The notes beneath the pieces were generated by a model. That model did no database searches and was not told the origin of the DNA. It saw only the letters and a list, made by a program, of their open reading frames with translations. Position numbers and translations under genes: made by a program. From contig JAKFUF010000215.1 of the NCBI GenBank assembly GCA_021732845.1, positions 1 to 37,129 on the forward strand: DNA of 37,129 nucleotides, written 5' to 3'. Numbering within the stretch: position 1 is the first letter of the stretch; each line of letters begins with the position of its first letter. The DNA comes from Planctomycetaceae bacterium. GTDB taxonomy: Bacteria; Planctomycetota; Planctomycetia; Planctomycetales; Planctomycetaceae. Shown here one piece after another: positions 3,912 through 33,995 of this stretch.

Positions 3912-5726
3912 GTGGCCATCCTTGAAGTGATCTCCGGGAGTTGCCCCGGCCAGATTGTCGAGCTGCTGGGCGAACGGATGGTCATGGGGCGGCATCCCAC
4001 CTGCCACATCGTGATCGACAATGCCGCCGTCAGCCGCAACCATGCGCAGATTCTGGAGAACCATGGCGCGTATTACGTCGAGGACCTGCGCAGCCGCAAC
4101 GGGACGCAGATCAACGGCAAGACGGTCAAGGGACGTGTGGAACTGCAGGAGAACGACGAGATCCGCGTGTGCGAGATGGCGTTCCGGTTCCGCACGAGTG
4201 GCACACCCGAACAGTCGTCGACAGTGATTTCCCGCCGGCAACTGGAGCCCGAGGAGATCCGCACGGACCAGCGGGCGGCCACCGTCGGCGAGGAAGTGAT
4301 CAAGGAGTTTCTCGACACCGACACCGCGCCGGGGAAGAGGAAGTCGCACCACATCGACCCCGACTCCCTGGACGGGTCGTCGATCATCTCCACGCTGGAT
4401 GTCGCCTCGACGCGGCATCCGCGGATCGCCGTGCGTCCCGAGGCGAAACTGCGGGCCGTGCTGGAAATCAGCAAGACCCTGGGAAACGCGCTGGACCTGA
4501 CGCAGGTGCTGCCGCGGATTCTGGACGGGCTGTTTCACATCTTTCCCCAGGCGGACCGCGGCGCCATTGTCCTGAAGGATCCGGATTCGAGCGAGCTGCA
4601 CATCGAGGCGCTGAAGAACCGGAGGGACGATCCGGGACAGTCGGACCGGCTGAGCAGCCAGATCATCCACAAGGCGATGAAGTCGGCGCAGGCGATTCTC
4701 AGCACCGACGTGCAGAAGGATGTGCAGGCGGAGCGGTTTTCCAAGTCGGACAGCGTCTACGGAATGCGGGTCTGCTCACTGATGTGCGCGCCGCTCGTCG
4801 GCCATGGGGGAGAATCGCAGGGCGTCATTCAGCTTGACACCCGCGACACCCGGCAACAGTTCTCCCAGGATGACCTGGATGTGCTGGCGAGTGTCGCCGC
4901 GCAGGCGGTGCTGGCGGTCGAAAACGCGCGGCTGCACGCGTCCGTCATGCACAAGCGGGACCTCGAACGGGAATTGCAGTTTGCCCACCAGGTCCAGCTC
5001 GGGTTTCTGCCGACCGAACGACCGCATCTCCCGGGCTACGAGTTCTACGATTTCTACGAGGCGGCCTACCGCGTCGGCGGAGACTTCTTCGACTACGTGC
5101 CGCTGCCGGATGGCCGTGTCGCCATGGCTCTGGGCGACGTGGCCGGCAAGGGCGTCCCCGCCGCGCTGCTGATGGCCCGGATGTACGCCTCCGCCCGCTA
5201 TGAACTCCTTTCGCGGCCGACGGCCGCCGGGGCGATGGACGGCCTGAACAATGGGCTGGTGGCCGGGGGCGTCGGGCACCGGTTCGTGACGATGATCCTC
5301 GCGATTCTGGATCCGCGGACACATGTGCTGACAATGGTCAACGCCGGACATCTGCCCCCGCTGCGGCGCGATGCGTCGGGCAAAGTCACGAAGATCGGCG
5401 ACAAGGAATCGGGCCTTCCGCTGGGTGTGAAGCCCGACTACGGATATCACGAAAGCCAGGTGACACTGGCCCCCGGTGACAGCGTGCTGATGTTCACCGA
5501 TGGTGTCACCGAGGCGATGAACCCCGCGAACGACATGTACGGATCGCGCCGGCTGCTGGACTACTTCGCGCGGGCTCCCGAAGCCATTGATCTGGTGGGC
5601 GAGCAGCTCATTGCTGACATCGAAACCTTCTGCGAGAACTGCGACCAGCGCGATGATATCTGCGTGATCGGCTTCCAGCGGCTCCTCCCCGAGGACCGTG
5701 GCAAGGCCGCCGCGGTCAAACGCTAA
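3912..5726 (+). CDS. FHA-GAF-SpoIIE (PPM) protein phosphatase
   Basis: A 604-residue signalling protein. Residues 1-95 form an FHA phosphothreonine-binding domain (MGRHPTCHIVID, SRNHAQI, SRNGTQING). A GAF-type sensor domain follows at about 176-345 (ISKTLGNALDLTQVLPRILD; CAPLVGHGGESQGVIQLD). The C-terminal third is an RsbU/SpoIIE PPM phosphatase with VGGDFFD (D391), ALGDVAGKGVPAALLM, NAGHLPP, FTDGVTEA and DDICVIGF, so the metal-binding aspartates are present. It starts at GTG 3912 with GGAGAG just upstream. Family knowledge suggests dephosphorylation of a Ser/Thr-phosphorylated partner under control of GAF and FHA inputs. The upstream kinase is a plausible partner. No anti-sigma or STAS gene lies nearby. 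Confidence 0.92.
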   Translation: MAILEVISGSCPGQIVELLGERMVMGRHPTCHIVIDNAAVSRNHAQILENHGAYYVEDLRSRNGTQINGKTVKGRVELQENDEIRVCEMAFRFRTSGTPEQSSTVISRRQLEPEEIRTDQRAATVGEEVIKEFLDTDTAPGKRKSHHIDPDSLDGSSIISTLDVASTRHPRIAVRPEAKLRAVLEISKTLGNALDLTQVLPRILDGLFHIFPQADRGAIVLKDPDSSELHIEALKNRRDDPGQSDRLSSQIIHKAMKSAQAILSTDVQKDVQAERFSKSDSVYGMRVCSLMCAPLVGHGGESQGVIQLDTRDTRQQFSQDDLDVLASVAAQAVLAVENARLHASVMHKRDLERELQFAHQVQLGFLPTERPHLPGYEFYDFYEAAYRVGGDFFDYVPLPDGRVAMALGDVAGKGVPAALLMARMYASARYELLSRPTAAGAMDGLNNGLVAGGVGHRFVTMILAILDPRTHVLTMVNAGHLPPLRRDASGKVTKIGDKESGLPLGVKPDYGYHESQVTLAPGDSVLMFTDGVTEAMNPANDMYGSRRLLDYFARAPEAIDLVGEQLIADIETFCENCDQRDDICVIGFQRLLPEDRGKAAAVKR

Positions 5727-5763
5727 ACGGCCTTGCGCGATTCCGGGACGCCGCCTGAGGATC

Positions 5764-5890
5764 TCAAATCTGACGTGTCCGACAAAGTCGGGCGTCTCAG
5801 TTTCATGGAATTTCAAATTTCAGATTTCAAATTTCACAGTAAAATACCTTTTCGCCGCATCAGGCCTTCCAGGCGAGAGTTCTTGCCTCG
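5764..5890 (+). repeat. Interspersed element, copy B (one arm plus core)
   Basis: Contains GACGTGTCCGACAAAGTCGGG, GGAATTTCAAATTTC and TTTCACAGTAAAATACC, then the core word CCTTCCAGGCGAGAG shared with copy A. Its left end matches the reverse complement of copy A's right arm. No right arm like that of copies A and D is visible. The CCGAC/GTCGG palindrome just after the phosphatase gene could also help termination, but it lacks a clear T-run. Confidence 0.7.
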
Positions 5891-14642: not shown

Positions 14643-14712
14643 CCTTCGTTCTAGCGGCATGGCGCAAGCCGTCCGGTGAGTGCTTTCGAACAACGAGCGT
14701 CGCCCGCTCTTG

Positions 14713-21784: not shown

Positions 21785-22199
21785 ACGATCACCCGAGAGA
21801 GGACACTCGTGAGACTCAAACAATTCTGAATTTGCCGCAAAGGTCAGATTGGTGCCGCGACACCGCATGGTGTCCCACACCCAATCACAGATTCGCCAGA
21901 ATGCCGAATTTGTCCACAAAGATTCATGGAGTATGCAGCAGTTGCCAAGATCTCGCAAGACACAATGTCTGTGGATCGGTGGGTTTTCGGCATTTCGCGT
22001 ACAGTATTTCAGTCCCGTCACAATCCGCGCGTACCTTCGGCATTTGTGCGGTGTTAAGATTGAGCCGCTGAATAGCCCTGCGAAATTCCGGTCAACTGCC
22101 GATGGAGGACGGCGCGTGCCTTGGGCGCGTCAGAACCACAATTGGCCTGCTGGAATTCCGCAATGTGAGTTGCGTTTTGTTCATCGCAGAAGGTTGTTC
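21785..22199. other. Divergent intergenic region of two giant genes
   Basis: Must contain promoters for both the secretin-N gene (leftward) and the FHA/PQQ gene (rightward). No promoter pair stands out enough to place. Both reading frames run into this stretch, but without signal or domain features. Confidence 0.5.
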
Positions 22200-32517: not shown

Positions 32518-32831
32518 ATGAGGAAAAAGGCCATTCCGCGCCGACCGTCCGGCCCCGAACTCGTCTACGGGCGGATCCGGGGAATTCTGGATTCTGCACG
32601 GACGAACGTCGCGCGCACGGTCAACTCCACACAGGTGATGGCCAACTGGCTGATTGGGCGGGAGATCATTGAAGAGGAGCAGCACGGGAGCGAGAAGGCA
32701 GGCTATGGACGCAGGCTGATTGATGAACTTTCCGCGAAGTTGCAGGCTGAATTTGGCGGCGGATTCAGTCCAACAAGCTTGAAGCTGTGCCGTCAGTTCT
32801 ACTTGATTTATCCCGCACTCCTGCCGCCTGG

Positions 32832-32934
32832 AATTGGTCACACACTGTGTGACCAATTGGGATCGCCCGTGGAGAACGGGGGGAACCGCGTCTCTCCCAG
32901 TGGACAGGATCAGATTAGTCACACAGTGTGTGAC
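32832..32934. repeat. Two related palindromes inside the DUF1016 gene
   Basis: A 27-base palindrome centred on GGTCACACACTGTGTGACC (32832-32858) and a 17-base one, GTCACACAGTGTGTGAC (32918-32934), share the core TCACACA...TGTGTGA. They encode the paired GHTLCDQ and SHTVCDQ segments. Confidence 0.85.
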
Positions 32935-33444
32935 CAGAGTTGGAAGGCCGGGCAACTCCATCCCAATCTGTCGTGGTCATTGTATCGGCACCTCGTGAAG
33001 GTGGCGGACAAACTGGCCCGCGGGTTTTACGAGATCGAAGCCATTCAGAACAACTGGTCAGCCCGTGAACTGGAACGGCAGATCAACAGCCTGCTCTTTG
33101 AGCGCCTGGCCAAAAGCCGCGACAAGGCGGGGCTGCGGCGGCTGGCAACGCGAGGGCAGGAAATCCTCCATCCCACGGACATCTTCAAGGATCCGCTGGT
33201 CATCGAATTTCTGGGCCTGCCCGAATCGCCAAAACTTGTCGAATCCGACCTGGAAACCGCGCTGCTCAACAACCTGCAAGCGTTCTTGATGGAACTGGGC
33301 CGAGGCTTTGCCTTCATTGGCAGACAGGAGCGAATCACGCTGGAAGGAGATCATTTTTATGTCGATCTGGTTTTCTATCACGTCGTCCTGAAATGTTATG
33401 TGCTGATCGACTTGAAGGTGGGCAAGCTGACCCACGGCGACCTC

Positions 33445-33536
33445 GATAGTACTGCACGACTCCGGCACACCTATCGCGGATCCGCTCGGCAGGCCTCGCA
33501 CCCGATCCGCTGGCGGTGTCCCGGAGTCTTGCAAGG
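33445..33536. mobile_element. 92-bp palindromic (REPIN/MITE-like) insertion in DUF1016 gene
   Basis: Outer arms GACTCCGGCACACC (33458-33471) and GGTGTCCCGGAGTC (33515-33528) pair at 13 of 14 positions. Inner arms GCGGATC (33476-33482) and GATCCGC (33504-33510) pair perfectly, with four unpaired bases on each side between the stems and a 21-base loop. TGCA flanks both sides. No target-site duplication is evident. Its excision restores the host gene's frame exactly. Confidence 0.75.
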
Positions 33537-33995
33537 GGGCAACTGCAGCTCTATGTGAATTACTTTGACGAGGAGCGCTGCTCGGATGACGACAATCCGA
33601 CGCTCGGGCTGATCCTCTGCACCGACAAAAATGACGCCGTGGTGAAATACACGCTGGGACCGGAACAAACCCGGAAGATCTTTGCCAGTCGGTACAAGCT
33701 CTACCTGCCCACGGAACAGGAACTTCGCGAGGAGCTGCGCCGGGAGGCACGGCTGATCCCGTCGGCACCGCCGCCGTCAGACAAGCTGCCCGGCAAGACC
33801 CGGCATCTGGAAAGGAAGCCGAACAAAAAATGAACCGTCATCCATGTCGGAACCGTCATTCGACTCATCCGCAGACGATGGCTGTGACGCAGAAATCTTC
33901 TGCCACACAACACCGCCGAAACCGAATCGCCTCCAGGTTGGTATACTCCCGCACGATCCCGTGGCTCGTGCCGTCTGTTCCTCGTGAGAGACCTG

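Follow-up and report, generated by a model that had tools for sequence, protein, structure and literature searches.

A REP-like tiered palindromic repeat interrupting a DUF1016/YhcG nuclease gene in a Planctomycetaceae bacterium

A gene coding for a DUF1016/YhcG nuclease in a Planctomycetaceae bacterium is interrupted by a palindromic repeat of 92 bases that truncates the protein. The site lies in a stretch of 37,129 nucleotides, referred to here as the window, which is one contig (C89) of a 9.25-Mb draft genome (262 contigs, 95.7% complete). The insert is a member of a genome-specific family of roughly 120-160 copies with a covarying hairpin structure, sharp boundaries, an enrichment of the dinucleotide CT at the left edge and no target duplication at the two sites examined. 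We consider it fairly probable that the element is non-autonomous and mobilised as a single strand by a Y1 enzyme acting in trans.

The insertion is placed between a leucine codon and a glycine codon of the nuclease gene (Table 1). Its edge is ambiguous by one base: removal of 33445-33536 leaves ...GAC CTC/GGG CAA..., removal of the equally possible 33444-33535 leaves ...GAC CTG/GGG CAA..., and GDLGQ is restored both ways. The Pfam profile YhcG_C (PF06250) is matched at positions 2-87 upstream of the insert and at positions 89-156 downstream of it, in another frame. Besides the window gene, 12 homologous loci were searched with tblastn; the two halves are contiguous, with zero extra residues, in all nine that align to both, while two align to the first half only and one to neither. 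The exact deletion proposed in an earlier note made from the sequence of the window is thus borne out to within one base. That note had also called for a search for an uninterrupted orthologue. The homologues of the nuclease are 28-54% identical and no relative with the gene uninterrupted at the DNA level was found, a point against the mechanism favoured below.

Since the length of the insert is not a multiple of three, the frame is broken. The upstream frame passes through the insert to a stop at 33558, so that 37 residues substitute for the 98-residue tail, and the insert is in this respect not devoid of coding content as had been stated. The downstream frame is still open over 98 codons, with a stop that ends at 33833. 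The D...DLK stretch of the nuclease, which is probably catalytic, lies upstream of the insert.

Table 1. Features in the window. Positions are counted from the first base of the window.
Feature	Position	Strand	Basis or remarks
Possible degenerate relative of the element, conserved right end GCAAGGCCGTTTAG	5723..5819	-	22.8 bits, E 0.0013 over 95 kb
Second possible degenerate relative, right end CGCAGGGCTATTCAG	22068..22172	-	21.2 bits, E 0.0035 over 95 kb
5' part of DUF1016/YhcG nuclease gene	32518..33444	+	start codon assumed; DUF1016_N and YhcG_C profile 2-87
CT dinucleotide at left boundary, putative cleavage/target site	33442..33443	+	CT enrichment at the left edge of the family
Inserted palindromic element	33445..33536	+	excision rejoins both YhcG frames; profile split 87/89; contiguous homologues; genome BLAST matches
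Outer stem, left arm	33453..33471	+	19 nt, 17/19 positions paired in the window copy; alignment columns 11-29 vs 74-92
Inner stem, left arm GCGGATC	33476..33482	+	97.1% of cells paired, 25 copies
Inner stem, right arm GATCCGC	33504..33510	+	covariation analysis, 25 copies
Outer stem, right arm	33515..33533	+	inverted repeat and covariation analysis
Severed 3' part of nuclease gene	33537..33833	+	YhcG_C 89-156; frame still open

The element is highly repeated in its own genome. At least 46 BLAST matches were obtained, the window copy included (40 of 177 candidates scored; one place is matched on both strands), and at least 145 matches to a covariance model of the family (150 of 8419 candidates scored). 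A 16-mer of the core was matched 159 times with up to two mismatches against 7 times for the reversed control. Five model matches above 60 bits, all full copies, lie in 398 kb (contigs C1, C2 and the start of C3), which corresponds to about 116 per genome. Most model matches (the model has 102 positions) are 92-103 bp long. Among the 130 copies with flanks, nine contigs carry tandem neighbours (periods of 80-98 bp), the longest run comprising up to five copies on C96; on C32 an additional pair lies 60 bp apart, one member of which is a fragment. By eye, no transposase was recognised beside the tandem arrays in seven loci.

Outside this genome the element was not retrieved. There was no BLAST match in 58 relatives (up to 15 candidates scored in each), no covariance-model match under stricter filters in 169 further genomes of the order (with up to 23 candidates per genome scored), no BLAST match among plasmids and phages at E 0.001 and no match of a 20-mer of the element in viral contigs. 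An exact 25-mer was found in no stretch of the genome contigs searched, and an exact 20-mer once, in Rhodococcus phenolicus, which by estimate is about the chance expectation; both searches possibly omit the genome itself and its near relatives. As far as the compared genomes go, the family is therefore specific to the species or the genus, because the nearest of them belong to other genera. The earlier note had proposed a search for further copies in the genome and its relatives and had counted a lack of them in relatives against its reading; the former are numerous and none of the latter was found. No published account of the family was found in the open literature, as judged by titles and the openings of abstracts.

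The boundaries of the element were derived from 97 copies, left from the 130 of 145 matches that have flanks after dropping 23 with a copy just upstream, 9 duplicates and 1 fragment. The left flank carries at most 0.07 bits of information from -20 to -3, and conservation then sets in sharply, with C at -1 in 71/97 copies and T at +1 in 54/97. An AT-rich foot follows the CT and leads to TTGC at the hairpin, the composition of the left end being CT..T.T.A.ATTGC. CT stands at the left edge in 47 of the 97 copies, which have distinct left flanks (45/95 without two copies nested in a 394-bp repeat described below). Elsewhere in the left flank it occurs in 2-10 copies at offsets -12 to -4, in 14 at -3 and in 8 at -2. 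The right end varies more: GCAAGGC occurs often, an extended ...ATTTAG-like end was counted in 16/106 copies (one pattern) and AG occupies the last position in 21/106.

A second insertion site was provided by a repeat of 394 bp (e.g. L081:1862-2255) that occurs both with and without the palindrome inside. Across the 37 loci examined the element is present in 18, absent in 14 and not placeable in 5; by coordinates, 19 of the 145 model matches lie inside this repeat. The filled form reads CTCGC/TGTATC...AAGGC/[A/T]TGCTG. The empty forms carry CAG (9), AGG (3), AGGCTT (1) or ACACGC (1); in the two single cases the edges are slightly shifted. AGGCTT and similar remnants look like the right end of the element. 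On a tree built from 22 of 32 rows (at least 240 bases each), filled and empty copies interleave; supported branches force at least three changes, with bootstrap values not settled, and the labels are no more clustered than shuffled ones (289/500 shuffles as low). Repeated gain at a single base is less likely than several losses or exchange among copies. The empty copies therefore cannot serve as the ancestral site, and the 394-bp site represents a sharp presence/absence rather than a fresh insertion. Repeats of this type, about 400-490 bp long, have by eye the ends TTAGG...CCTTA and enclose a large inverted repeat. The proposal of the earlier note that the nuclease was truncated by the arrival of a mobile palindromic repeat in its gene is upheld by the copy number, the scattered sites, this presence/absence and the open downstream frame.

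In the mechanism that we favour, a Y1 (HUH) transposase provided in trans would recognise the tiered hairpin on single-stranded DNA, cleave at a CT that precedes the hairpin foot by about ten bases and join the strand to another CT with no duplication of the target, in the manner of REP and IS200/IS605 elements. Landing after ...GACCT in the YhcG gene would then have cost the nuclease its last 98 residues and given it 37 others. Single-stranded transfer, cutting at CT and the Y1 enzyme as mover are all three inferred. The reading is supported by the copy number and the covarying structure, by the exact junction with intact homologues and the second site without duplication, and by the onset of conservation at a left-edge CT, the dinucleotide at which the studied TnpA-REP enzymes are described to cut, recognising hairpins with a 5' foot (PMC8266576). 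Against it, CT is missing from the left edge of 50/97 copies, the right boundary is not at CT either in the window or in the 394-bp repeat, and the empty copies of that repeat may be losses rather than pre-insertion sites.

The enzyme required by this mechanism belongs to a group that is represented in the genome. Five matches to Y1_Tnp were found. Two are IS200-like: L031, which is without the first part of the profile, and L034, which is interrupted by a copy of another palindrome called here sister family 2. The uninterrupted Y1 frames are L032, L033 and L035, the last of which codes for the protein P0003. With the NCBIfam model of REP-associated transposases, L032 scored 56.7 and L033 63.6 bits, both under the 80-bit cut-off; P0003 scored weakly (21.6) with the same model and lies just below the Pfam cut-off. 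P0003 is probably a class-3 TnpA, an assignment made from its ...YTVEAQD motif and flanking arrays rather than from a class profile. The earlier note had advised looking for a RAYT (Y1 transposase) gene elsewhere in the genome; RAYT-like genes do exist, but their neighbours are other repeats. The 16-mer core of the family (up to two mismatches) is absent from the 8.1-10.7 kb around L031, L032, L033 and L035 (stretches L097-L100) and from the 3.1 kb around L034, which hold only sister family 2, and the covariance model likewise found no family copy in the shorter Y1 loci. None of the five Y1 genes thus has the family beside it, which counts against the favoured mechanism, in a draft that at 95.7% completeness may miss a gene. 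Beside the RAYT-like gene L033, hairpins follow one another in tandem (L099:3240-4240, contig C57), and some of them carry GTAG at the foot (GTAGCCGAGTCACTCCGTGACTCG). Sequences of the form AACCACGAATTTT...ACGAAT occur near a RAYT-like gene (L098:2147-2268) and at C2:40710-40760.

The gene of P0003 (L100:2154-2660, contig C215) is bracketed by tandem tiered palindromes (L100:1630-2960) with a period near 82 bp. A 19-nt arm of this palindrome has 479 matches in the genome, where both arms of a unit can count, against 0 for the control. One such arm lies in the window as an exact 19-mer match (14661-14679, strand -). Sister family 2 is likewise abundant, an 18-mer having 194 matches against 1 for the control, and many of its copies are arrayed at a spacing of about 80-92 bp. 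It is weakly matched by the covariance model of the element's family (R1; best 35.1 bits), and one of its units aligns near full length with two units of that family (0 and 1 of 500 shuffles as high). Its similarity to the P0003 arrays is weak (9 and 27 of 500 shuffles reach the score). An 88-bp copy stands inside the IS200-like gene L034 (about 1628-1723, contig C4); it is absent in L031, and the flanks are 90-91% identical. The presence of Y1 genes and this intragenic copy are in line with mobilisation of such palindromes by a Y1 enzyme. Two tandem copies of sister family 2 apparently lie within a reading frame (C1:19500-20400; by eye), and another copy overlaps the end of the tail-matching region of a further DUF1016 gene in this genome (L048:1199-1257, contig C38).

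Two extensions of this mechanism were considered. Tentatively, the genome may host a guild of palindromic parasites comprising at least three families of tiered palindromes: that of the element, that which flanks P0003, and sister family 2. The family of the element, and perhaps sister family 2, would lack a transposase of its own and depend on a Y1 enzyme whose recognition is guided less by sequence than by the architecture of the hairpin; the class-3-like TnpA is a possible candidate. If so, a satellite of this kind would have inserted recently in the window. It is also doubtful that P0003 specifically is the mover. Genes of class 3 TnpA-Y1, a class reported from Planctomycetes, are described as having atypical palindromes of high copy number on their flanks (Quentin et al. 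2018, PMC6006769); the gene of P0003 is flanked by such arrays, to which sister family 2 shows its weak similarity. The family of the element itself has no significant similarity to them (275 and 49 of 500 shuffles as high), and their foot GGGTCRGT occurs at all in only 3/29 loci of P0003 homologues from other genomes. As a general mark of class-3 genes or P0003 homologues GGGTCRGT was ruled out, being absent or sporadic around the 29 homologues.

Homologues of P0003, counted by similarity and not by class, are present in 132/297 sampled genomes of the bacterial class, its own included (E up to 1e-6). In 20 of the 29 homologue loci from other genomes there are 14-mers repeated at least three times; the closest relative of P0003 (L233, 78% identical) is among the 9 loci without them. 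Long palindromes stand directly beside the gene in most of 13 loci viewed by eye, which were picked from those 20 for their repeats. A search for relatives of P0003 among solved structures returned none by sequence at E up to 1.

The structure of the element is that of one nested hairpin. In the window copy, two inverted-repeat arms of 30 nt (33453-33482 and 33504-33533) are 80% complementary. In the structure of the element, 19 pairs make up the outer stem, which a four-by-four internal loop separates from the inner stem of 7 pairs. Taken alone, this copy folds no better than its GC content predicts (z = -1.16; 24/200 shuffles equal); it stands above chance because the family repeats and covaries, not by its own stability. 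The structural alignment, from which the covariance model was built, holds 25 of 30 retrieved copies, near-duplicates and one deleted copy being excluded. Over these copies 91.5% of the cells are paired, and 8 pairs are changed on both sides, in 29 cells. The percentage paired, the pair count, the cell count and the covariation score were each reached by 0/500 shuffles, a comparison in which relatedness of the copies alone can exceed such shuffles, whereas a fifth measure, the number of further pair types, is ordinary (193/500 shuffles reach it). Pairing falls to 28-49% when the partner columns are slid by 1-3. RNAalifold adds a small third tier, of which the pair 47-52 is changed on both sides in 11 copies. 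The two-tier hairpin seen in the earlier note is confirmed by these arms and by their covariation.

The same note had offered a MITE-like element as one label, i.e. a miniature element bounded by terminal inverted repeats that a DDE transposase moves via double-stranded DNA. The element is indeed short, non-coding, palindromic and present in many copies. Nevertheless, this origin is unlikely: target duplication is absent both at the window junction and in the 394-bp repeat, and the inverted repeat covers the entire element with a conserved inner tier. Mobilisation of a single strand by a Y1 enzyme is preferred because of the missing duplication and the left-edge CT.

Quite unlikely as well is a conserved RNA element, such as a terminator or regulatory hairpin, that spread by duplication and came to lie in the gene by accident. 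The hairpin covaries and copies inside genes are few, as would be expected of it. The fold is conserved, but covariation of a palindrome fits RNA and single-stranded DNA alike, no Rfam match was obtained in the window at gathering thresholds, and the tandem arrays and the insertions into a reading frame and into another repeat better suit a mobile repeat. That the insert is removable, ribosome bypassing or RNA processing skipping the 92 bases so that full nuclease is made, would agree with the codon-exact join and the intact tail frame, but is highly improbable, as any clean insertion gives an exact join and most copies do not lie within genes. Of the 145 matches, 129 have flanks long enough to be judged: a coding signal is missing from both sides in 56 of them and is present on both sides, on the same strand, in 11. 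By eye, the 10 of these besides the window copy comprise 6 with a new gene start just downstream, 3 unclear cases and one (on C122) that looks intragenic.

The value of this genome is that several families of palindromes occur together with a host repeat seen both filled and empty and with a clean insertion inside a gene. Tests of how such repeats move thereby gain concrete substrates and boundaries and a candidate CT target. The question is of wider relevance in view of the frequency of P0003 homologues in this bacterial class and of the intermediate place suggested for class-3 TnpA enzymes in PMC6006769.

The element can finally be compared with known systems. A REPIN unit consists of two REP hairpins in inverted order, and rickettsial palindromic elements are palindromes within protein genes. 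The element shares the intragenic position with the latter, which are among the repeats named in PMC3733652, but its length is not a multiple of three and it breaks the frame. IS200/IS605 elements have hairpin ends and insert beside a short target without duplication (PMC6006769), traits that the present element may share; in contrast, it has no transposase inside, and a single hairpin takes the place of distinct left and right ends. Class-3 TnpA enzymes are described as possible intermediates between IS200 transposases and RAYTs, of untested behaviour, and their palindromes as bearing a 5' tetranucleotide foot CnGA (PMC6006769). The element resembles these palindromes as a long tiered palindrome of high copy number in arrays, but the sole class-3-like gene here is flanked by a different palindrome with no significant link to the family. 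With REPs and REPINs the element has in common a high copy number with a mostly intergenic location, as in the definition of REPs and REPtrons, and a hairpin preceded by a 5' foot. Like them it occurs in tandem arrays, shows no target duplication at the two sites examined and carries CT at the left boundary in about half of the copies. REPs are, however, defined by an unpaired GTAG or CGTC tag at one end and a size of 20-40 bp (PMC3733652), elsewhere given as 21-65 nt (PMC6006769), whereas the element is about 92 bp long and shows no such tag in the left-end composition of 97 copies. Nor is it a REPIN in the strict sense, the other label of the earlier note: one nested two-tier hairpin explains the conserved pairs, and no RAYT gene flanked by copies was seen among the five Y1 genes. 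Overall, the element works like a REP yet stands outside the definitions of REP, REPIN and MITE, and is best called a new REP-like variant.
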